Below, in pieces: positions 215-23,731 of a stretch of DNA of 40,209 nucleotides. The notes below the pieces were generated by a model. The model did no database searches. It was not told where the DNA came from and saw nothing but the letters and a program-made list of their open reading frames with translations. The stretch covers positions 1-40,209 of IMG/VR virus record IMGVR_UViG_3300033146_004961. One strand, written 5' to 3'. Origin of the DNA: a virus. Numbering within the stretch: the first letter of the stretch is position 1; every line of letters starts with the position of its first letter. A program made the position numbers and the translations under genes.

Positions 215-1003
215 TTGATAAAAAACATTGAAGTATATTATGGAGTTGTAGAAGATGACATGGATCCAGATGAACTTGATAGGTATCGGGTCAGGATACA
301 TGGTCTGCATACACCTGATAAATCTCTGATACCGACCACTTCACTTCATTGGAGTAGGGTTTTATTGTCTGGGGTACATGGATCAGCTAAGGGACGTGGT
401 TTTACAGCCACTGGTCTTGTAATTGGTGACACCGTGATGGGATTCTTCCTTGACGGAACTTCTAAGCAAGACTTCATCATCATAGGGACATACATAGGGA
501 TTACAACTGGAGAAAATGATTCCAATATCATAGGAAGAGCAAAGGGAAATGAACATGAAACTGTCATCACGAAAAAAGCTCAATTAAAAGGTACTCATAT
601 TGACACAAGTTATGATCAATGCATATATCCAGATCTCCAGGTATATGAATCCAGGACAGGCCATATAATCATTGTTGATGATACCAAAGATGAAGAACGT
701 ATTGAGGTGATTCACCGCAGTGGTTCAGGCTTTGAGTTAATTGAAGATGGATCATTCCAGATTATTACCCAAGTGCAGAACAACTCTATCAATAATGGTG
801 AGCTTAACCGAATCACAGTCAAGAATGAAAATATCCAGGTAGGAGGCGACGTCAATGTTGAAATAGATGGTAATTGGAATGTAACAGTTGGTGGTGAAAT
901 TCATTTCTGGGCAAAGGGGAATATATATTTCAATGGTAAAAATATATATGAGAATTGCAAGGTCAGTAAACCAAATCCAATAATCAATACAGTGAGGAGA
1001 TAA
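215..1003 (+). CDS. gp5-like baseplate central spike protein (OB-fold plus beta-helix, no lysozyme domain)
   Basis: This is a 262-residue candidate for the membrane-puncturing spike below the baseplate hub. The N-terminal part (about 1-110) matches the gp5/VgrG OB-fold style: a start like IEVYYGVVEDDMDPDELD, then RYRVRIHGLHT, and a GLVIGDTVMGFFLDG strand pair. The C-terminal part (about 200-250) has short alternating strands such as VNVEIDGNWNVTVGGEI and KGNIYFNGKNIY, typical of a trimeric spike beta-helix. T4 gp5 is about 575 residues with an internal lysozyme domain; that domain is absent here. The start is TTG at 215, with AGGAG at 204-208; the nearer GTG at 210 runs straight into a stop. 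The PAAR tip gene follows directly, the usual spike-tip order. Confidence 0.82.
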   Translation: MIKNIEVYYGVVEDDMDPDELDRYRVRIHGLHTPDKSLIPTTSLHWSRVLLSGVHGSAKGRGFTATGLVIGDTVMGFFLDGTSKQDFIIIGTYIGITTGENDSNIIGRAKGNEHETVITKKAQLKGTHIDTSYDQCIYPDLQVYESRTGHIIIVDDTKDEERIEVIHRSGSGFELIEDGSFQIITQVQNNSINNGELNRITVKNENIQVGGDVNVEIDGNWNVTVGGEIHFWAKGNIYFNGKNIYENCKVSKPNPIINTVRR

Positions 1004-1004
1004 T

Positions 1005-1292
1005 ATGCCTGCAGCGGTAAGACATACAGATATATGTTCTGGTCATGGTTGTTACCCACCCAGACCAAATAATCAAGCATCAACTAATGTTTTCATCAAT
1101 GACCTTGGATCTCATAGGTTGACGGATAGCTGGGCACCTCACTGTTGAGGACCACCATGTCATGGCGGAGTTGCTGCCAGTGGAAGCCCCAATGTATATG
1201 TGAATGATTTGAAAAAGACAAGAATAGGGGATGCTGTAAGTTGTGGGTCAACTATGGCTCAAGGGTCACCAAATGTGTGGGTAAATGATTAG
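1005..1292 (+). CDS. PAAR-type spike tip protein with in-frame TGA at codon 48 (candidate selenoprotein)
   Basis: PAAR proteins cap the needle of contractile tails and T6SS spikes with a metal-stabilised cone. Read through the TGA at 1146-1148, this frame gives 95 residues ending with TAG at 1290-1292. The N-terminal half holds AVRHTDICSGHGC and VFINDLGSHRLTD. The C-terminal half holds CHGGVAASGSPNVYVND, RIGDAVSCGST and GSPNVWVND, which is normal PAAR sequence. The TGA falls in the cluster His-Cys-TGA-Gly-Pro-Pro-Cys-His, where I recall homologues often carrying Cys. No frameshift is present and the second half is well preserved, so a decayed gene is less likely than recoding or a single-base error. 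Standard decoding would give a 47-residue product without the second half. The start ATG lies 1 nt after the gp5-like stop, with GTGAGGAG just upstream. Confidence 0.75.
1161..1182 (+). promoter_or_regulatory. Candidate bacterial-type SECIS hairpin downstream of the PAAR TGA codon
   Basis: Pairing by eye: 1161-1162 with 1181-1182, 1163-1166 with 1176-1179, a G-U pair 1167-1175 and a G-C pair 1168-1174. G1180 is bulged and the apical loop is AGUUG (1169-1173). The loop G at 1170 is separated from the TGA by 21 nt. As I recall the bacterial SECIS pattern, a G among the first two loop bases lies roughly 16-37 nt past the UGA, so this fits. A competing hairpin, 1152-1168 with loop GUC, lies closer to the TGA. 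No folding energy was calculated. Confidence 0.4.
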
Positions 1293-3931: not shown

Positions 3932-6900
3932 TTAAATTTCACCACCCACCCAATATACATTCCAAATATCAGTAGAATCCTTTTTAACCAAAAATGTATT
4001 TCTACCACCGTCAAAGTCAATATCAGACTGAACCACTGCATTGATCTGTAATGCACCTGTACCGATCAAAGTAAGTACAACTGTAGTAGATCCTGTGGTA
4101 TTTAATTTATCTTGAACTTCAAATTCTGCACCATCTGCATACCACGTTTCATCAGTAGACACTGTATATGTTGCAGGGACAGCAGACTCATTTCTAATCT
4201 GCACCTTATTGCCAACAGGGAAGAGAATTGGATTTGCAGTATCATTCTCAGTAACGAAAGGAGCCCCAGAAATGCACTCAATGGTAAACACACCATCAGT
4301 GGTTGAATAAATCCGATATACCCCACCACCAGGAAGTAGCATTGTCACTGGAGATGCACCAACTGAAGGGCTACCACCATTGACTTTAATATTCCCACCC
4401 GTAGAAACCAGGATCAATTCATTGGCTTGTGCAGTATTGGACAGATCAATAAATGCTTCTTTATCCTCATTCCCATTACTTTCGAAGGTCAATACTTTCA
4501 TTGCTGTAGGATCATTGTAGTAATAATATCCAAGATGAACCATGTCCACTGCAGCAAGCACGTCATGCCACGTTTTAGATGCAGCACTTAGAGCTACCCA
4601 TTCGTTTGCCCCAGAACCCTCCACAAAGGCTGTAGAAGCAGCGATATCACTATTCGCCTTATACAACATATTACCACTTTCAACGATCTGCCCAGTTCTG
4701 TATTTGTTTTCAAGAACCCAAGGGCCACGAAAATGGTCTCTGGTAAAATCTTTAAGAGCTTTAGGAGTACCAGCCTCATCAATTTTCCAGATATGTGTAT
4801 AATCCTCACTATCCACATCAGTTCCATTATAGAACAAGATAGTGTTTTTCATATATGGTGCCAGAGCAGCAACTTCAGCCAAAGTTGGATTAACTGTATC
4901 AGCAGCACCCAAACCAGTAGCAGAGAAAAACATATTGACATACATACCAGCTTTGAGCCTGATGACATTATGTGAATTATCAACCCACCAGATATACAAT
5001 TCAGGATCAGTCGCCAGATCAGTCGCAGTATAAAATACCATGGTATTCTTGATCTTGGCACTATGCAAACAAAACATAGTAATCTCTGAATCAAGAGGGA
5101 CATGAGGTGTCATCAAAGGTGCATAAGCAGTCAATGCAGTTGTTGTAATATGAAACTTATCCATATTAGAATTGATTGCAGTAACTGCCCCAGTACTGTC
5201 GATATGATATACGTGTGTTGCTTCATCCACAGGCAAATCAGTACCTGAATAGTAGACCACGCCACCCCTAACATCAATGAAATCATCTGAGTTGGTTGTG
5301 ATATATAGATTCACTTCTGCATCAGTGGGTGCCTCTGTAATAGCAGCATTCAGCGTTGTAGCAGGAAGGAACATTCTCTTAACTGAACCCAAACTAATAT
5401 CAATGAGTTTCCCGTCAAAAGTCACGTACCATATCTGAGTTGTGGTGTCTGTATCCGTATCGGTTCCTGTGATATAGATAAAAGAGTCACGCATCTCTTT
5501 GACGTTGTTAGTTACTAACGTGGTCATTTCAGCCGTGGTTGGGTGCGTAGCATCAGCGACACCAGCTGTAGTCAAAGCAGTGGCAGAAAGGAATACTTTA
5601 TGAGTTCCTTCTTCCTGGATCAATACTACATTACCACTTCCATTGACATAGAATAACCGAGTTACATCGTCAGTGTCAATATCAGTACCAGTAACATAAA
5701 TATAAGAATCATTGATACTATTCGCTGTGGCATGTGCCTTGATATCTACTATATCAGGGAACTCACCTACTAAGGTCTTGGTTGCATGAACCATTTTATT
5801 TGCAGCAAGCTCAGTCCATTTACCAGCACCAGTACCTTCAACCAGAGTAGGATTGGCAACAATATTGGAATTGGCTCTATAGAACTGATTAGATTCAATA
5901 ACAATCTCACCTGTATTATATGCCTCAGTTCCACTAAAATCACCCTTGAGGATACTTGACCCACCACCACCAAGTTTAAACCATTCACCAGTGTACATAT
6001 TGGTCAATGGGGTATCCTTGAGAGCAATAATCATCTCACCAACACTGAAGTCAACTGCATTTACAGTTCCAGCAACTGATACCCGATATGCACTACCTTT
6101 CAGATCAGTTGTAGGAAAGACACCAGTTGAGGCATCCCATACACCTTTATCAACAAATGCACCCCAAAGTTTTGCATAGTCACCAGAGGTAATCCATCTA
6201 TCAATGTTACCAATAAAGGATGCATTCTGAATACCAGGGGTAATGCAGTAGTAGTATTTCCCGGCTTCAATGACTTCATCACCAACGGCATATGCAGTAC
6301 CATCAATCCATTTATCTCCATAAGGAAGCATGGAAAATGACAAGGGATTGTAAGTGGCTGTTCTGTAAGGCTGAGTACCTGCAGGGTTGGTTCTCAGAGA
6401 GAAATCAGCGGCAGAAGTGAATCTAAAGATGTATGTGGTACCATCGATATATTCAGCATTAATCGGGAATTCAATTAGATCACCATCGACAAGCCCAGGT
6501 GTAGGAACCCACGTTACCTCAAAATACTTATTGCCTGCTGCCACTGATCCCTTATAACCTATAGCATGAAGAGGTGCAGTCGGAATAGTAGCTCCAACTT
6601 TCAGTTTTACACTACTGGTGTATATACTCCCAGCTGCTGTAATTTGATATTCAAATGTAGTATTTGCGGGTGTAAGAGTATCAGTGCTATCATCTCCATA
6701 AAAAACAGAATCAACTACCTGAGCACCCATAATCGGAATATCAGGTTCACCAGAACTATTATCAGGATTCAATGGAATTGAAATAAGGATTCTTTTTTCA
6801 CCACTGTCCCTTTCAGTCTTCAGATAATTACCGATAGAACTTAAATCAAGTGATTCCAATATAATGCTTTCATCTAATTGGACGGTTGTACCAAAGATGT

Positions 6901-9136
6901 GCATGATATCATCATCGTCTATATATGATTTATGTGTAAATTTATCATTAATGCTTTCAATAGGAATCCAGGCATTATTACCATTGATGTCGACAATTTC
7001 AAAGATGAGACCAGTATTGCTATAAAATTCACGTTTTCCTGGAGTTCGATCATCACCTGGAATACGATCAGCACCTGACATTTCAACAACTATTGACTTT
7101 TCATCACCATAATGATAGAATCCAACACAATCACCAACAATATGAGCAGATGCAAGAGGCATTGTAATGTTAGCATCAAAAGCAGGTTCCATTACATAAA
7201 GGAAACCTTCTTGCGCTGTAGTATTGGTTGCAGTGGTATAGACAGGCTCAAGGAATGCGGTACCGTTCAGGAGAGGTGCCCATTCAGTGATATCCCAAGG
7301 ACTACCGGCAGTCGTCTGAGTTGTATTCTTAAACAATTTACGATTTCTGGAAACTACATCCCCCAGAATATAAATCATTGCAGAATCAAATTCACCCCTG
7401 TAGATATTCCTTTCACCACCAATCAGTGTCCATCTATCCGGTAAAGTACCTTCCGTGAAGATTGTACCACCAGTGATATCATTATTTGCCTGATAAAATT
7501 TATTATCTACATAAACGATCTCATTTTCAAGATACGTATCAGAGACAACATGAGCACCCCGATATGCATGTCTACCAGAAGATAGTTCATACCAATCAGA
7601 ACCACCAGGAAAAACAGAAGTTGCCCAAGGTGTATTTGCTACAATGGGATCACCTGCAAAATACAATTTTCCATCAATGTATTTTACTACATCATCCTTT
7701 GCATATGATAAAGTAAGATCCCAGTCACCTTTGTATTTGCCAGCCATGGTTGATAGTTTGGTCCAATGACTTGCACCAGTACCTTCAACAAAAGCGGTAA
7801 GTATAGGGATATCACCATTGGCTTTATAGATATCATTTCCTACAATAACAGCATCATCCATAAAGTAATTGACTGCAGTAGTATGAATACCCTTAAATTT
7901 ACGTGTTGCCTCTGCACTGATTTTAGTCCATGTGGCACCAAGGGTACCCTCTACAAAAGCCGTATTTGCGGCAATAGGGTCATTTGCTTCCCATAGAAAA
8001 TCATCTTTGGTTACAACGTCTTCTTTGGCATACACTTCTGTGATATCCCAAGGTCCACGATAATGTGTACCAAGGATTTCAACCCACTCTTCATCATTGG
8101 TACCTTCTACAAAAGCAGTAAGAGCAGGAATATCAGAATTGGCTGAGTAAAGTTTATCATCCTCAGTTACTGAATCACCATGGACATAGATTGTATTGAT
8201 ATCCCAGGCACCTCTGTACATCGGAAGCTGCATATCAGATATTTTGGTCCAAGTAGCCCCTACAGTCCCTTCTGCAAAAGCAGTTCCAATTGCTATATTG
8301 GCGTTTGCCCGGTAAATCTGATTAGCTTTAATGACCAGATCATTCTGGAGATACTCTTCAGTGATCAGCCAGTATTCCCGAAAGAAATCTCTTTCATGCT
8401 TTGAAATTTCAGTCCACTCTGCAGCTCCTGAACCTTCCACGAAGACAATACCAGTAAGCATATTACCATTGGCTACATAGAACTTACTATCTTTCTTGAC
8501 CAGGTCTCCAAGCTTATAAACATTACCAACAGAATGTTCACCCCGATAAGACATCTTATCTTTCACAAGGGTAAATTCATCGGCAGCAATACCTTCTGCA
8601 AAAACACCATTCCGGGCAATATCGGTATTGGCTACATACAATTTATCGTTATACATTACTGTATCACCAGCAATGAATTTATCAGTGGTAGCATAGGGGC
8701 CATGGAACTTGGACACTTCACCAATAGGAGACCAGGTTGCTCCTGCATCGCCTTCCAGGAACGGGAAGGTACTGGCTGCCATCGGGCCATTGGCTCTAAA
8801 GAGTGCATCATTTTGAAAAACAACGTCATCTTCCAGGTAGGAATCACTAAATTTCCATTCACCCCTGAAAGTGTTATAATCAGTATCACCAATGATGGAT
8901 ACCCAATGAGAATATACTTCATTACCACCAATATCACTCCAATTGACTGCCTTAAGGACTGTCAGGTCCAGAGGGTCAGCAGCTTTGAGCAGATTGCTTG
9001 CAGAGATATCATCATTGAAACTGTAGATTTTATTGATATCAGTTACAAACATAACTTCTGTTTTTCTCTGCCCGATCAAAGCAGCAGAAGCAACATCTTC
9101 AACGATGAAATTCTTGATCTGTTTTTGACTTAACAT
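3932..9136 (-). CDS. Giant modular tail fibre/adhesin, 1734 residues, with carbohydrate-binding-like repeats
   Basis: This is probably a long tail-fibre or surface adhesin that contacts host glycans. Residues 1-88 form a domain (MLSQKQIKNFIVEDV, IGQRKTEVMF) shared with the neighbouring 9210-11177 product, probably for virion attachment. Next come about ten tandem modules of roughly 53 residues, each of the form YRGxWDxxxxYxxGDxVxxxxxLYxAN...W, like family 5/12 carbohydrate-binding modules. Single further modules appear near residues 950, 1070 and 1480. Between about 1115 and 1470 is a different repeat present five times, each centred on a YxTGTDxDTD...xxYVxxxG motif. The C-terminus is beta-rich. 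The ATG at 9136 has AAGGA seven nt upstream. Length and repetition suggest a trimeric rod, which is inference; no enzymatic motif was seen. Confidence 0.8.
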   Translation of the reverse strand: MLSQKQIKNFIVEDVASAALIGQRKTEVMFVTDINKIYSFNDDISASNLLKAADPLDLTVLKAVNWSDIGGNEVYSHWVSIIGDTDYNTFRGEWKFSDSYLEDDVVFQNDALFRANGPMAASTFPFLEGDAGATWSPIGEVSKFHGPYATTDKFIAGDTVMYNDKLYVANTDIARNGVFAEGIAADEFTLVKDKMSYRGEHSVGNVYKLGDLVKKDSKFYVANGNMLTGIVFVEGSGAAEWTEISKHERDFFREYWLITEEYLQNDLVIKANQIYRANANIAIGTAFAEGTVGATWTKISDMQLPMYRGAWDINTIYVHGDSVTEDDKLYSANSDIPALTAFVEGTNDEEWVEILGTHYRGPWDITEVYAKEDVVTKDDFLWEANDPIAANTAFVEGTLGATWTKISAEATRKFKGIHTTAVNYFMDDAVIVGNDIYKANGDIPILTAFVEGTGASHWTKLSTMAGKYKGDWDLTLSYAKDDVVKYIDGKLYFAGDPIVANTPWATSVFPGGSDWYELSSGRHAYRGAHVVSDTYLENEIVYVDNKFYQANNDITGGTIFTEGTLPDRWTLIGGERNIYRGEFDSAMIYILGDVVSRNRKLFKNTTQTTAGSPWDITEWAPLLNGTAFLEPVYTTATNTTAQEGFLYVMEPAFDANITMPLASAHIVGDCVGFYHYGDEKSIVVEMSGADRIPGDDRTPGKREFYSNTGLIFEIVDINGNNAWIPIESINDKFTHKSYIDDDDIMHIFGTTVQLDESIILESLDLSSIGNYLKTERDSGEKRILISIPLNPDNSSGEPDIPIMGAQVVDSVFYGDDSTDTLTPANTTFEYQITAAGSIYTSSVKLKVGATIPTAPLHAIGYKGSVAAGNKYFEVTWVPTPGLVDGDLIEFPINAEYIDGTTYIFRFTSAADFSLRTNPAGTQPYRTATYNPLSFSMLPYGDKWIDGTAYAVGDEVIEAGKYYYCITPGIQNASFIGNIDRWITSGDYAKLWGAFVDKGVWDASTGVFPTTDLKGSAYRVSVAGTVNAVDFSVGEMIIALKDTPLTNMYTGEWFKLGGGGSSILKGDFSGTEAYNTGEIVIESNQFYRANSNIVANPTLVEGTGAGKWTELAANKMVHATKTLVGEFPDIVDIKAHATANSINDSYIYVTGTDIDTDDVTRLFYVNGSGNVVLIQEEGTHKVFLSATALTTAGVADATHPTTAEMTTLVTNNVKEMRDSFIYITGTDTDTDTTTQIWYVTFDGKLIDISLGSVKRMFLPATTLNAAITEAPTDAEVNLYITTNSDDFIDVRGGVVYYSGTDLPVDEATHVYHIDSTGAVTAINSNMDKFHITTTALTAYAPLMTPHVPLDSEITMFCLHSAKIKNTMVFYTATDLATDPELYIWWVDNSHNVIRLKAGMYVNMFFSATGLGAADTVNPTLAEVAALAPYMKNTILFYNGTDVDSEDYTHIWKIDEAGTPKALKDFTRDHFRGPWVLENKYRTGQIVESGNMLYKANSDIAASTAFVEGSGANEWVALSAASKTWHDVLAAVDMVHLGYYYYNDPTAMKVLTFESNGNEDKEAFIDLSNTAQANELILVSTGGNIKVNGGSPSVGASPVTMLLPGGGVYRIYSTTDGVFTIECISGAPFVTENDTANPILFPVGNKVQIRNESAVPATYTVSTDETWYADGAEFEVQDKLNTTGSTTVVLTLIGTGALQINAVVQSDIDFDGGRNTFLVKKDSTDIWNVYWVGGEI
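4740..5800 (-). repeat. Five tandem GTD-type protein modules within the giant fibre gene
   Basis: Five consecutive segments of about 65-80 residues share a pattern seen as IYVTGTDIDTDDVTRLFYV, IYITGTDTDTDTTTQIWYV, VYYSGTDLPVDEATHVYHI, VFYTATDLATDPELYIWWV and LFYNGTDVDSEDYTHIWKI. Each is followed by a Gly-containing turn and preceded by a block like FLSATALTTA. The module differs from the carbohydrate-binding-like repeat of the same protein. Confidence 0.7.
7250..8885 (-). repeat. About ten tandem carbohydrate-binding-like modules within the giant fibre gene
   Basis: Successive modules begin FRGEWKF, FHGPYAT, YRGEHSV, FREYWLI, YRGAWDI, YRGPWDI, FKGIHTT, YKGDWDL, YRGAHVV and YRGEFDS. Most continue with a GDxV strand, an LYxAN strand, an AFVEGT turn and a conserved Trp. 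The divergence between copies shows this is an old, diversified array rather than a recent DNA duplication. Confidence 0.75.
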
Positions 9137-9209: not shown

Positions 9210-11177
9210 TTAAACAGTCTGAACAATCTCCAAGATATCCCCAATTTCAAGAGGAATGGCTGAAGCACTATAAACAAACTGATTAAGTGTAACGTAAGTG
9301 AATTTACTTTTATTTAACAGTACACCATTGACGTAAAATTCGATATCGGATGCATTATATTCATTGATATCAATTCCTAAAGTAACTCCGCCATTAGTGA
9401 CAAGATAGTCAGCTCCAACATAAGTCAGGTCAAACAGATTCCCAAGATAACTGGTCACTTTTTCTTTGGTAATATCAAAAAAGCAGTGTTTAAGAGGGAT
9501 AGGATCATTCGCACTAATCTCAGTCCACTCATTGGCCAGAACACCTTCAGTGAAGCCAAGACCGGGTGCAATAGCAGTGTTTGCTTTATATAGCTTATTG
9601 CTTTCAATGACCACATCAAAGATTTTGTAGGTATCCAGGTTAGTCCATGGCCCACGAAAGCTGCTTACCCCTGCAATCAATTCCCATTTTGTAGGATCCA
9701 TTGCAATATGACTACCAAGTACACCATGTGCAGAAGTACATCGCCAGATTCCACCAGCAGCTTCATAGACTACATCACTAACGAGAAATACGTCATTGTC
9801 GGCATAATCCCCAAGATAGATATTCTTTTCACCTACAATATCCCAAGTAGCTGTATTGAATACTGCCCCATGGATTATTGCATTATTGGCAGCCATTACT
9901 TGACCACCCCTTAGAATCATATCCCCTATCTTGTAATCAAGATCTATATCAAAATCCAGAAGGTTATCTACAGCCAATTCAGTCCACTCGTTTCCAAGAG
10001 TACCTACATTCCAAGGTTGTAGTGCTGCGATATCTGAATTTGCCTTATATAATACATTACCATTCATAACCACGTCATTAATGAAATATGCTTCAGTAGC
10101 TGCATATACACCTCTGAATTTTGCCCTGGAAAGCTCAGTCCACATAGTAGCACCAGTACCGATCTGGAAGGGTGTATTGACTGGCATAATGGTGTTTGCC
10201 AGGTACAGATTATTATCCAGGGGATTAATGACTACATCATCTGCTTCATATTCATTTGTAAGTAACCAAATGCCTTTAAATTTACAGACTTCTGCAACCT
10301 TCATCCATTTGGAATAATCCATGGCTGAATGGACACCCTGAACACCATGGGGAATGGTACATCTCCATAGACAATCAAGGTCATAAACAACATTTCCTAC
10401 TTTATAGACGTCAAAGTTAGCAAAATCTCCAAGATACATATTCTCTTCACCAATTAATCGCCATTCGGTGATATTAAATGGAGAGCCGGCAGCCACAAGA
10501 ACTATGGCTTCATATATCTTTTCTTCATATTTTACTACTTCATCAATCTCATAGTTACCTGTAGTGGTAAACTCTGCCAAAGTACCAATATTGAGTTTGG
10601 TATAAGTTCCAATACCAATGCCAATGTTTGGTGCAGCAGGATAGCCAGCAGGCCCAGCAGCTCTGGCACCATTTGAGATATATAGTGCATTCTCATAGTA
10701 GACCATATCATACTGAGCATATTTGGAAATTACGTCATATACCCCATGATACTTGATGGCAGCTGTGATTGGACTCCACTCGTTGGCCAGAACACCTTCC
10801 TGGAATGGTAGATTGGTAATAGCTGAATTTGCTTTATAGAGTTTCAAACCAACCATGACAACATCAGCAGCTGCATATGTCTCCAGAGGATCATGATCAC
10901 CTCTAAATGGATGGTCAGCTGGTGCGATAATATTTACATCGATCCAGATTGAATACTCTTCAAAGAACAACACATCACTGAAATTCTTTGCTTTGAGGTA
11001 ACTTGTATTGGTTACATCGGCTGCTTTGGACATATTTGCAGCAGAGACGGCAGATGAATACCTATATAATTTTTTGGTTTCTTCACAATAAGCAAGCTCA
11101 GAACCCCTCTGGCCAATAGTTCCCATTCGGGTTACTGTATCAATAATTAGATTTTTAATCTGTTTTTGACTGATCAC
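9210..11177 (-). CDS. Modular tail fibre/adhesin with about nine carbohydrate-binding-like repeats
   Basis: This protein of about 655 residues opens with ISQKQIKNLIIDTV and IGQRGSELAY, matching the N-terminal domain of the 1734-residue neighbour, so the two fibres probably dock at similar sites. About nine modules follow (FRGDHDP, YHGVYDV, YLGDFAN, FKGIWLL, FRGVYAA, YLGDYAD and FRGPWTN among the clear ones). The C-terminus (FYVNGVLLNKSKF, then LEIGDILEIVQTV) resembles those of the 23812 and 24765 products. I chose GTG at 11177 because GGAG lies 8 nt before it and the resulting MISQKQ aligns with MLSQKQ of the neighbour. ATG at 11183 is the alternative but sits only 2 nt from the GGAG. It is first in the fibre operon. 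Confidence 0.78.
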   Translation of the reverse strand: MISQKQIKNLIIDTVTRMGTIGQRGSELAYCEETKKLYRYSSAVSAANMSKAADVTNTSYLKAKNFSDVLFFEEYSIWIDVNIIAPADHPFRGDHDPLETYAAADVVMVGLKLYKANSAITNLPFQEGVLANEWSPITAAIKYHGVYDVISKYAQYDMVYYENALYISNGARAAGPAGYPAAPNIGIGIGTYTKLNIGTLAEFTTTGNYEIDEVVKYEEKIYEAIVLVAAGSPFNITEWRLIGEENMYLGDFANFDVYKVGNVVYDLDCLWRCTIPHGVQGVHSAMDYSKWMKVAEVCKFKGIWLLTNEYEADDVVINPLDNNLYLANTIMPVNTPFQIGTGATMWTELSRAKFRGVYAATEAYFINDVVMNGNVLYKANSDIAALQPWNVGTLGNEWTELAVDNLLDFDIDLDYKIGDMILRGGQVMAANNAIIHGAVFNTATWDIVGEKNIYLGDYADNDVFLVSDVVYEAAGGIWRCTSAHGVLGSHIAMDPTKWELIAGVSSFRGPWTNLDTYKIFDVVIESNKLYKANTAIAPGLGFTEGVLANEWTEISANDPIPLKHCFFDITKEKVTSYLGNLFDLTYVGADYLVTNGGVTLGIDINEYNASDIEFYVNGVLLNKSKFTYVTLNQFVYSASAIPLEIGDILEIVQTV

Positions 11178-11229
11178 TTTCATTACTCCTATTTTAAGTT
11201 TCTGGGTAATTTAACTCGGTTAATGATTA

Positions 11230-13422: not shown

Positions 13423-13722
13423 ATGAACTTCAAAGAGTTTCAAAATAGATGCAAATGGAAGATTAAAACCAGAATAGTCCCTTTACAAGTGCCGGCATTT
13501 AGTAAAATTGAAACATATGATATTGGCGATATAGTTACATGGAAAGGAAAACAATATATCAGGATCATAGATTCTGGTTTCTTTGATATGGCTTTTCAAA
13601 GGCATCAATGGGAATGTTTTGCAGATGCATGTGCAGCCACATCTATGACGTGTGCCGTTCATAATTGTGCCTCATGGGAATTACGGTTGGATGTTCTCAA
13701 GGATTTTGGGTTGTTTTTATGA
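13423..13722 (+). CDS. Small protein with a single carbohydrate-binding-like module
   Basis: This 99-residue product has a strong AGGAGG site before its ATG. The segment YDIGDIVTWKGKQYIRI followed by a Trp (HQWECF) matches one module of the large fibre proteins (GDxVxxxxxxY...W). The C-terminal half is Cys-rich (Cys in ECFADACAATSMTCAVHNC), perhaps metal-binding or disulfide-forming. It stops with TGA. Its place just after a terminator and before the early region leaves timing uncertain. It may be a free module or a fibre accessory; function unknown. Confidence 0.7.
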   Translation: MNFKEFQNRCKWKIKTRIVPLQVPAFSKIETYDIGDIVTWKGKQYIRIIDSGFFDMAFQRHQWECFADACAATSMTCAVHNCASWELRLDVLKDFGLFL

Positions 13723-19727: not shown

Positions 19728-20834
19728 ATGGCAGAACTTAATGTACCAGTTACAAAGATCATTGACATACATAAGCATACAAACGCAGACAGACTGGAAA
19801 TAGCCTATACAAACGCAACCAGCTGGCCCGTGATAATCACTAAGGAATCATTTGAAGCAGGCGACCTTGTAGTGTATTTTCCAGTTGATTCAGTGATGCC
19901 TCCTGACCTTGAGGAAATCATTCTTGGTAATACCAAAATGAAATTATCGAATGGAAGAGTCAGAGCTGCAAAGATTCGCCAGGAAGTGTCATATGGAATC
20001 ATCTATCCACTATCCAAACTTCAAAATCATTATCCCAAATTAACGAACATCAACCTGGCTTCAGATATCAAGAATATTCTGGGAGTTGAGAAATATGAGC
20101 CACCAGTCAAACCAGCAACTCGTGGATTTGAAAGGCGTAAAGGCTATAAAGATAATCCAGATTTTGATAAATATATCAATATGTCTCATATCCAGCAACA
20201 CAGAAGCCCCTTTCAAGAGAATGAATTTGTAACGATCACAGAGAAACTCCATGGAACTTCATTTCGTGCAGGATATCTCAAGAAACCTAAAGCTTGGCAT
20301 AGTTTCTTTACGAAATATCTTCCATGGGTAAAAGCATATCAATTCTGTTATGGATCCAGGAATGTCCAGCTTCAAGATACCATAAGAGATAAGACAGTTT
20401 ACAAGCGTATTGTAAAACAATTCAAACTCAAAGAGAAAATGAAAAACTTTCCTGGAATCACTATCTATGGTGAAATTGTTGGCCCTGGGATTCAAAAGGG
20501 TTACACCTATGGTTTGAAGCCAGGTGAAATTGACCTATATGTTTATGATGTAAAGCAGGGTACTTCTTATGTTTCTGATCACAGAAAGCACTATTATACA
20601 GGCATATTAAGCCTTAAAGAAGTTCCATGGTATGGTTTAAATCGATGGGGATCTCTTAAGGATGGTATTTCCGAATTCTTTGAAAATAATGAATCATTCT
20701 TTGGCAAGGATGTAGTCACTGAAGGCATTGTTCTGCATTCTATTAAGCAGATTAATGGTAATACTCACATGAAAAAGTACAAATTACTCAACCCTGAATA
20801 TCTCTTGAACAAAGAGAACACTGACTTTCATTGA
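19728..20834 (+). CDS. RNA ligase, DRB0094/Rnl5-like
   Basis: This is an ATP-dependent ligase expected to seal 3'-OH/5'-phosphate RNA ends, possibly to repair RNA cut by host defences. The 368-residue product has an N-terminal OB-like region (about 1-100: VTKIIDIHKHTNADRLEIA, AGDLVVYFP), as in Deinococcus DraRnl. The nucleotidyltransferase motifs follow: motif I EKLHG with catalytic Lys173, motif IIIa GEIVG (248-252), motif IV EGIVLH (332-337) and motif V KKYKLLN (349-355). The start is ATG 19728 after AAAAGGA; frames further upstream overlap the preceding gene. The Rnl5 assignment is from memory of the N-terminal OB layout. Confidence 0.87.
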   Translation: MAELNVPVTKIIDIHKHTNADRLEIAYTNATSWPVIITKESFEAGDLVVYFPVDSVMPPDLEEIILGNTKMKLSNGRVRAAKIRQEVSYGIIYPLSKLQNHYPKLTNINLASDIKNILGVEKYEPPVKPATRGFERRKGYKDNPDFDKYINMSHIQQHRSPFQENEFVTITEKLHGTSFRAGYLKKPKAWHSFFTKYLPWVKAYQFCYGSRNVQLQDTIRDKTVYKRIVKQFKLKEKMKNFPGITIYGEIVGPGIQKGYTYGLKPGEIDLYVYDVKQGTSYVSDHRKHYYTGILSLKEVPWYGLNRWGSLKDGISEFFENNESFFGKDVVTEGIVLHSIKQINGNTHMKKYKLLNPEYLLNKENTDFH

Positions 20835-20866
20835 TACTGAACTTCAATTACAAGGAAACTGATATT

Positions 20867-21343
20867 ATGAATATCACTTTGAAGCAGATTGGTTACAAAG
20901 AAATACCGAATGAAACCTCATTGATCTATTTTGTTTCTGGCTGTTCTCTTAAATGCAAACATTGTCATTCAAGAGAATATTGGGATGCCTCAGTTGGAAC
21001 AGAATTCAATTTTACACATTTCAGGAATGATATGGAAAATGGCCTGCTCACTACAGCCCTTTTTATGATAGGTGACTTTACACCCAATGTAATCGAAACA
21101 CTCCAATATGTAAAGGTAATCACTGAGCATTACGGTGTACACCTGGCAGTCTATTCTGGTTTTGATTTCTGTGCTATTCCTAAAGAAATTCTCAAGGTTG
21201 TTGACTTCCTAAAGACTGGGCCATATATTGAAGCACTGGGTGGATTAGATGCTCCAGAAACCAACCAGACTCTATGGGAAAAGGAAGAAGGGCCAATCTT
21301 TAGAGGCATCAAAGGTCAAGGTTTGAATCAAACCATTTTCTAA
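20867..21343 (+). CDS. nrdG: NrdG, anaerobic ribonucleotide reductase activating enzyme
   Basis: This radical-SAM enzyme makes the glycyl radical on NrdD under anoxic conditions. The 158-residue product (T4 NrdG is about 156) carries the CxxxCxxC cluster motif at Cys26, Cys30 and Cys33 within SGCSLKCKHCHSREYW. Its end, GPIFRGIKGQGLNQTI, matches the C-terminal style of NrdG. ATG 20867 follows AAGGA; an ATG at 20831 overlaps the RNA ligase stop and lacks a ribosome site. NrdD lies one gene downstream, so both components are encoded. Confidence 0.92.
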   Translation: MNITLKQIGYKEIPNETSLIYFVSGCSLKCKHCHSREYWDASVGTEFNFTHFRNDMENGLLTTALFMIGDFTPNVIETLQYVKVITEHYGVHLAVYSGFDFCAIPKEILKVVDFLKTGPYIEALGGLDAPETNQTLWEKEEGPIFRGIKGQGLNQTIF

Positions 21344-21949: not shown

Positions 21950-23731
21950 ATGACTTCACAAGATAAAACTCTCAAAGACCTATTTCAAGACAAGATTGAA
22001 TATATCAATGATTACATTGGTGCTTCCAATGCAGCCACTGCATCGAAATTTGATCAAAATTCAAATATCACTTCTAAGTCCATAGCAGGAATGGCAACAG
22101 AAATTTGGAAGGATCTCAATATTGGCTTGAATAGAACTTTGATGCATAACAAGATCACTGAAATATATGGCCTGGAACTGGCTGATGAATATCTCAGGCA
22201 GATCGAAGATAAAGAAATTTATTGTCATGATGAAAGTTCACTCAATGCTTATTGTGCTTCAATATCACTCTATCCATTCCTATTGGATGGATTGAATGCC
22301 TTCAATGGAATTTCAGATTCCCCGAAGCATCTTTCTTCATTTTGTGGTTCATTTATCAATTTAATTTATGCCTGTACTGCTCAGCTTGCTGGAGCAATCG
22401 GTACACCTGAATTTCTTATGTTTTTTGATTACTTTGCCAGGAAAGATTTGGGTGATAATTACCTTGAAGATCATAACAAAGAAATTACACAATATATGCA
22501 GCAGGTCATCTATGGAATTAATCAGCCTACTGCCAGAACCAATCAGTCTGTATTTCTTAATGTTGCTATATATGATAAACCTTTCTTTGAATCAGTATTT
22601 GAGAATTTTGTGTTTCCTGATGGAGAACCACCCAGTTGGGGTTCCCTCTTTAAACTTCAGGAATACTTTCTTAAGTTTATGAGAGTAGAAAGAACAAAGA
22701 AGTTGCTTACATTTCCTGTGATTACAGCTCATGTCCTGAATGACGGGACTGTACCAATTGATGATGATACTACACACCTTTTAGCTTTAGAGCTTTCTTT
22801 GGGTAATTCTTTCTTTATATACACGAGTGATACAGCAGATGCCCTGGCTTCATGTTGTAGACTCAGGAATGAATTGACTGATAATATCTTTTCATCTACC
22901 CTGGGAGCAGGAGGGGTGTCTACTGGTTCTTTGAACGTGATTACTATGAACATGAATAGGATCATACAGAAGAACATTGAACTTAAGGAACAAGTACTAA
23001 AAATCCACAAATATCAGCTTGCCTATAAAGCAATCATACAGCAATACTATGATGCAGGCTTACTGGATATTTTCAGTGGAGGGTTTCTTAACATTAAAAA
23101 GATGTTTCTCACTGTTGGTATCAATGGATTAGTGGAAGGGGCTGAATCCCTTGGGTATACAGTGGGAACTAATAATGATTACATAGACTTCATAAGCTCT
23201 ACCTTACAAACGATTTATGAGACTAATATGGAAGGTAGGAAAAATCATGGAGTTCTGTTCAATTCAGAATGTGTCCCTGCAGAGTCATTAGGTTGTAGAT
23301 TGTATGAGAAAGACAAGAACGATGGACTTCAGGTTGATCCCAATAGAAACTGTTATAATTCATATTTCTATCTTCCGGATGATCCTATGTCTTCAATTGT
23401 TGATAAGTTTGTCCTACAAGGAGGGAAGATAGCCAAGAGTCTGGATGGAGGATCTGCACTTCATTTGAATCTAATGGAGCATCCATCATACCAACATGCA
23501 CTGGACTTGATTAATTTAGGAATCAAGACTGGAAATCAATTTTGGTGTATCAACGTCAGAAGTACACACTGCCAAGATTGTGAGTTCATCACCAATGAAA
23601 CCAAGTTTGATTGTCCAAATTGTGGTAGCAAAAACTTGCTCTATGGAACCAGAGTTATTGGTTACTGGAAACTTGAATCACATTTCAGTGAACAGAGACA
23701 GATAGAATCGAACCACCGGGCATATATCTAA
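21950..23731 (+). CDS. nrdD: NrdD, anaerobic ribonucleoside-triphosphate reductase
   Basis: This class III reductase converts NTPs to dNTPs using a glycyl radical made by NrdG. The 593-residue product (T4 NrdD is about 605) includes the ALELSLGNSFFIYTSD and CCRLRNEL segments with the active-site Cys region. The C-terminal zinc site has Cys541/Cys544 and Cys555/Cys558 (THCQDCEF, FDCPNCGSKN), and RVIGYW places the radical Gly at residue 571. RVIGYW differs slightly from the RVCGYL I expect in many homologues. There is no N-terminal ATP-cone, as in T4. The ATG is preceded by AAAGGA, and a strong terminator follows the stop. Confidence 0.92.
   Translation: MTSQDKTLKDLFQDKIEYINDYIGASNAATASKFDQNSNITSKSIAGMATEIWKDLNIGLNRTLMHNKITEIYGLELADEYLRQIEDKEIYCHDESSLNAYCASISLYPFLLDGLNAFNGISDSPKHLSSFCGSFINLIYACTAQLAGAIGTPEFLMFFDYFARKDLGDNYLEDHNKEITQYMQQVIYGINQPTARTNQSVFLNVAIYDKPFFESVFENFVFPDGEPPSWGSLFKLQEYFLKFMRVERTKKLLTFPVITAHVLNDGTVPIDDDTTHLLALELSLGNSFFIYTSDTADALASCCRLRNELTDNIFSSTLGAGGVSTGSLNVITMNMNRIIQKNIELKEQVLKIHKYQLAYKAIIQQYYDAGLLDIFSGGFLNIKKMFLTVGINGLVEGAESLGYTVGTNNDYIDFISSTLQTIYETNMEGRKNHGVLFNSECVPAESLGCRLYEKDKNDGLQVDPNRNCYNSYFYLPDDPMSSIVDKFVLQGGKIAKSLDGGSALHLNLMEHPSYQHALDLINLGIKTGNQFWCINVRSTHCQDCEFITNETKFDCPNCGSKNLLYGTRVIGYWKLESHFSEQRQIESNHRAYI

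Follow-up and report, generated by a model that had tools for sequence, protein, structure and literature searches.

The window, as the whole analysed stretch of 40,209 bases is called here, is an IMG/VR virus record of a T4-like myovirus that encodes rIIA, rIIB, gp46-like, gp53-like and PhoH proteins. Close to its start, a gp5-like baseplate hub/spike gene is followed by a PAAR spike-tip gene (Table 1). Translation of positions 1005-1292 with TGA read as selenocysteine (Sec, U) gives 95 residues and terminates at the TAG at 1290-1292, the sole in-frame TGA being codon 48 in the context HCUGPPCH. The first-pass annotation had described a single frame from ATG 1005 to TAG 1290, interrupted only at codon 48 and with intact PAAR sequence in both halves, and this description is borne out by the translation and by family comparisons. 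The read-through product scores 35.1 bits against the Pfam PAAR_motif PF05488 (cut-off 27, E 1.6e-8) and is matched end to end by PHROG 281 (E 2e-32), while its AlphaFold2 model, built with 40 relatives, reaches a pLDDT of 97.4 and resembles PAAR tips of known structure, namely 4ku0 (T4 gp5.4; Foldseek E 1e-8, TM 0.9), 4jiv, 4jiw and 9vyi, including the tip of phage P1. The profile score above the curated cut-off, the PAAR fold and the adjoining gp5-like spike gene all place the protein among the PAAR tips. Apart from TGA48 the gene is undamaged, and all of the conserved residues of the family are kept 3′ of the TGA; a 47-residue product ending at codon 48 would be without His53 and Cys80. Terminator-like inverted repeats ending in T runs are present at 1441-1487, after the PAAR gene, and at 1903-1942, after the next gene.

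Table 1 Features of the PAAR locus and of the ribonucleotide reductase genes in the window.
Feature	Positions	Strand	Details and basis
gp5-like baseplate hub/spike gene, predicted to be capped by the PAAR tip	215..1003	+	Pfam Gp5_OB; PHROG 430, E 4e-49
AGGAG ribosome-binding site of the PAAR gene	995..999	+	sequence
PAAR spike-tip gene	1005..1292	+	95 residues with codon 48 TGA read as Sec
His14 codon, predicted Zn ligand	1044..1046	+	alignment; kept in 75/76 rows
Cys16 codon; Cys16 is predicted to bond with residue 48	1050..1052	+	C16-C48 covariation
His46 codon, predicted Zn ligand	1140..1142	+	alignment; kept in 76/76 rows
Cys47 codon, predicted disulfide with Cys52	1143..1145	+	C47-C52 covariation
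In-frame TGA at codon 48, predicted to encode Sec	1146..1148	+	Cys column in relatives
Candidate bSECIS hairpin	1152..1183	+	stem UGGCGG/CUGCCA 1163-1168/1174-1179, loop AGUUG 1169-1173
Cys52 codon, predicted disulfide with Cys47	1158..1160	+	C47-C52 covariation
His53 codon, predicted Zn ligand	1161..1163	+	alignment; 76/76 rows; lost if stop at codon 48
Cys80 codon, predicted Zn ligand	1242..1244	+	alignment; 76/76 rows; lost if stop at codon 48
Probable NrdG activase (4Fe-4S single-cluster domain), adjoining nrdD	20831..21343	+	Pfam Fer4_12
Anaerobic ribonucleotide reductase NrdD	21950..23731	+	Pfam NRDD, E 1e-88

The position taken by the TGA is a cysteine column in the relatives, as had been anticipated. 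The alignment comprised 76 rows, namely 70 non-redundant relatives and six genes with TGA48, column 48 of the latter being set to Cys; a Cys is found there in 63 of the 70 relatives without TGA48 (69/76 rows with the TGA48 genes so set), and in the first 41 IMG/VR relatives codon 48 was TGT or TGC in every case (41/41). Two marks of a selenoprotein are thereby present, an in-frame UGA aligned with the Cys of homologues amid sequence conserved on both sides, and the occurrence of the UGA at one and the same site in several lineages (the window; L043/L082/L089; L267/L268). The PAAR genes of Desulfovibrio phage SRB7757, Bacillus phage G and Variovorax and Aliivibrio phages were checked and are without a stop. 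That of Acidovorax phage ACP17 (L159, KY979132.2) is open throughout, yet its annotation covers no more than a short 3′ fragment; it was considered as a stop-split gene and rejected, since the frame is open (Arg47, Cys48) and the case is one of mis-annotation only.

Searching 2.9 million viral contigs for the pattern His-Cys-TGA-Gly-x-[PSTA]-Cys-His gave 14 matches, three of which are PAAR genes with the TGA at the identical column 48 (L043, L082 and L089, on contigs of 10 kb, 202 kb and 48.6 kb, respectively); the DNA identity of L043 to the window PAAR gene is only 59%. An equally specific control with the TGA one codon upstream, HUCG, had 22 matches and not a single PAAR gene among them, on which ground Sec at the neighbouring Cys47 was rejected. 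PAAR genes were likewise absent from the 15 matches to a pattern with a V/I/L-type third loop residue and from the 35 matches to a genome-wide pattern with Pro49, and the pattern U-G-x-P-C-H-G-G, which omits the upstream His-Cys, had the already known L082 as its sole PAAR gene. On the tree the TGA48 label changes at least four times, as counted by starred branches, which suggests that Sec and Cys have been exchanged more than once. In the comparison of L043 with L082, dN and dS are 0.33 and 1.33 on the 3′ side of the TGA and 0.36 and 0.73 on the 5′ side, and such purifying selection after the TGA indicates that the part downstream of it is translated. L089 (L107 10455-10742) is a divergent PAAR gene in which a three-residue insertion between columns 12 and 13, in the context CS-TGA-VSGHGC, brings in another in-frame TGA, which may be a second Sec, decay or an error.

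TGA48 occurs in prophages as well. A profile search with no bias toward TGA (E ≤ 1e-12) in 395 genomes of one phylum found window-type PAAR genes in two of them, G078 and G340, each of which has a TGA48 copy (L267 and L268, respectively); in three further phyla (some 1,200 genomes) there are two window-type PAAR genes, both without TGA. In L267 the motif at column 48 is HTUPAGRH, and the neighbouring gpD, gpV, gp25, baseplate J, terminase, portal and capsid genes in G078 are all open, so that the prophage, which is Mu-like, looks intact save for TGA48. The L268 prophage in G340 is decaying, with a stop in gpV, a split gpD and TGA also at columns 52 and 73 of the PAAR gene, and L268 is therefore counted only as shared ancestry with L267; the same genome also has a Cys48 copy, the decaying prophage with its TGA48 copy being on C23 (L277) and the intact Cys copy on C37. 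L279 (G425), of the same class as L267 and L268, has a TGA at Trp43 that presumably reflects decay. Both prophage hosts exceed the curated cut-offs for SelB (394 bits in G078 and 371 bits in G340) and for tRNA-Sec (80 and 85 bits, respectively). The search for Sec machinery, proposed together with the original finding, is thus answered for the prophage hosts, while on the phage records searched neither SelB nor tRNA-Sec was found over the cut-offs, which implies that host machinery must be used.

The recurrence at column 48 bears directly on the alternative that had been considered foremost, namely an error of sequencing or assembly, or a nonsense mutation of recent origin, restricted to the window contig, with TGT or TGC as the true or ancestral codon and a functionless TGA. 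The TGA is indeed one base away from both Cys codons, the window is a single contig, and decaying relatives do carry nonsense TGAs, as do L279 at Trp43 and L268 at columns 52 and 73. However, TGA48 also occurs in three diverged phage contigs and in an intact prophage, with none one codon upstream, and the window gene is otherwise undamaged and keeps its conserved downstream residues. As a general explanation an error has become unlikely, and for the window contig taken alone it is still improbable, although it is the best placed of the alternatives.

Next, a hairpin is found downstream of the UGA. The published bSECIS constraints are a loop of 3-9 nt with a G in the first two positions, a stem of 4-16 bp, a distance of 16-37 nt from the UGA and a free energy of at most -7.5 kcal/mol (PMC13188914), and the window hairpin satisfies them with a 6-bp stem located 20 nt after the UGA and -11.5 kcal/mol, while 17% of synonymous shuffles score as well (p 0.17). 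By bSECIS score against synonymous shuffles, the hairpins of L043 (p 0.01) and L268 (p 0.03) are significant and that of L082 is borderline (0.08), whereas those of L089 and L267 are not significant, L267 being borderline by free energy (0.06). The six TGA48 hairpins, among which those of L267 and L268 are not independent of each other, give a combined p of 0.006 by bSECIS score and 0.0009 by free energy. A hairpin passing the constraints is also present in 63% of the Cys homologues, and the comparison of the TGA48 genes gives p 0.35 against all 68 Cys homologues and p 0.011 against 40 of like GC. L043 and L082 have a common hairpin, GGA-GGU-UCC, with a UGA-to-loop distance of 18 nt that equals the spacing in E. 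coli fdhF, as checked in the fdhF sequence. On the whole the hairpins support the TGA48 genes as a set, and for the window gene taken singly this support is weak.

The role of residue 48 appears to differ from the one first proposed. The first-pass annotation took Sec to replace a metal-ligand Cys, which finds no support, as profile alignment to the solved PAAR chains VCA0105, c1882 and gp5.4 assigns the Zn ligands to His14, His46, His53 and Cys80, and C48 covaries separately, with C16. In another PAAR protein, Zn binding via two Cys and one His is needed for function (PMC10715212). Across the 76 rows, which are related to one another, C16 and C48 are both present in 66, both missing in 7, and C48 alone is present in 3 (Fisher p 5.5e-8), two of the latter having a Cys one residue further on; C48 has changed at least four times, being lost with C16 missing each time. 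For C47 and C52 the corresponding counts are 45/29/1/1 (p 1e-18, the rows again being related), and each has changed at least 12 times, while the cross pairs between C16/C48 and C47/C52 show no association in the same 76 rows. L267 keeps C16 and TGA48 and has lost C47 and C52. The covariation of residue 48 with Cys16 leads to the prediction that Sec48 and Cys16 are bonded at the tip, and on the same ground a second bond, Cys47-Cys52, is predicted.

The covariation also weighs on the possibility that UGA48 is read as an ordinary amino acid, by a near-cognate Trp, Arg or Cys tRNA or by a suppressor, to give some full-length PAAR protein without selenium. UGA is the leakiest stop codon and a virion needs few tips; yet the site is limited to a single Cys column, itself covarying with C16, the machinery for Sec is present in both prophage hosts, a tRNA search of the window found none, and no UCA-anticodon tRNA is among those listed by ARAGORN for the phage of L082. 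Such decoding is accordingly quite improbable. The 202 kb phage G002 (L103-L105) has a tmRNA gene, tRNAs for nearly all amino acids, a c-di-GMP-I riboswitch and a predicted CTA-anticodon (amber) tRNA, called Pyl by ARAGORN.

TGA terminates ORFs in the window and is thus a normal stop there: the ends at 13722, 18692, 20834, 27541, 27851 and 30788, cited earlier as a sign that the codon is not globally reassigned, are real ORF ends, and a few more were found. TGA is likewise an ordinary stop that ends many genes in G000, G002 and G003, and long ORFs in the window, G002 and G003 are not extended when TGA is read as sense. An alternative code in which TGA stands for Trp or Gly in these phages is therefore next to excluded, even though one relative, L152/L194, does use TGA as Trp, since many genes of L152 have TGA where a Trp is expected from the alignment column, while its codon 48 is TGT; TGA=Trp (table 4) was rejected for the window, G002 and G003 by their many TGA-terminated genes, in contrast to L194. 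L152/L194 is nested on the tree with L043, L082 and L089, and its TGT48 is as expected if Sec cannot be encoded there. In L194 (contig IMGVR_UViG_3300033144_005154) the tail genes each have several in-frame TGAs at Trp positions, and its PAAR protein is without Cys16.

The tip very probably carries Sec, because the UGA stands at a Cys column and the same swap is found in unrelated phages and in the prophage of a Sec-using bacterium. The earlier proposal that codon 48 encodes a Sec replacing a conserved Cys is thus well supported, by the recurrence at one column, the Cys homologues, the Sec machinery of the prophage hosts and the selection downstream, and a probability of roughly 0.85 is assigned, by comparison of sequences, to a window PAAR tip in which host machinery reads UGA48 as Sec and Sec48 forms a brace with Cys16. 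In such a model, the PAAR tip would cap the gp5-like spike in a contractile tail of the T4 type, and the host SelB and tRNA-Sec, as judged from the prophages whose hosts have both, would insert Sec at UGA48 with the help of the coding-sequence hairpin just 3′ of it. The Sec48-Cys16 selenenylsulfide would adjoin a second bond, the Cys47-Cys52 disulfide, as well as the canonical Zn site H14/H46/H53/C80, and Sec48 might brace the needle point in a structural or a redox role. Sec is probably favoured as phages of anaerobic, selenium-using hosts would exchange Sec and Cys freely, as in other Sec/Cys families. The wider view, with odds only slightly better than even, is that there is a class of contractile-phage needles with a Sec tip and the Sec48-Cys16 selenenylsulfide beside the Zn apex, and that phages of selenium-using hosts have acquired such tips several times.

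The window protein follows the known PAAR tips (PF05488; T4 gp5.4, VCA0105, c1882 and P1 UpfC) in fold, size, the H14/H46/H53/C80 columns and its placement after a gp5-like gene, whereas, unlike the solved tips, its type has the extra pairs C16-C48 and C47-C52 with one Cys as UGA; the two covarying pairs point to a bonded subclass among PAAR tips. With bacterial Sec/Cys selenoproteins such as E. coli FdhF it shares the UGA at a conserved Cys column, downstream purifying selection, hairpins at the usual distance, and SelB and tRNA-Sec in both prophage hosts. In contrast to them, it belongs to no known selenoprotein family, would be a structural part of the virion and not a redox enzyme, and its hairpin evidence is uneven. 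Known prokaryotic selenoproteins are mostly cellular redox enzymes (PMC9312934, PMC13188914), the words 'PAAR', 'phage' and 'virus' are absent from a 2026 review of them (PMC13188914), and no report of a phage structural or PAAR selenoprotein was found in the searchable open-access literature. Earlier hints of phages engaging Sec decoding come from phage-encoded tRNA-Sec, predicted in Basilisk-like Bacillus phages and in huge wastewater phages (PMC6145125, PMC10747093); no selenoprotein was named along with those predicted tRNAs, whereas here there is a protein and no tRNA. A Sec tip, if true, would be a selenoprotein that as a virion part passes through the envelope of the next host cell, its Se-S bond perhaps being a low-potential one that stays formed or switches under anaerobic conditions, and would tie the infectivity of such phages to host selenium status. 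It would also explain PAAR genes that are split or missed by annotation pipelines, and the G078 prophage provides a ready system for testing it.

As regards the host of the window phage, the presence of NrdD, which is 51% identical to the NrdD of a Vibrio phage and 46% to that of a Desulfovibrio phage, and of a probable NrdG hints at an anaerobic or facultative bacterium. On the minus strand, the window encodes proteins of 1734 and 657 aa (3932-9136 and 9210-11183) with matches to the carbohydrate-binding CBM_5_12, which are possibly tail fibres or adhesins.
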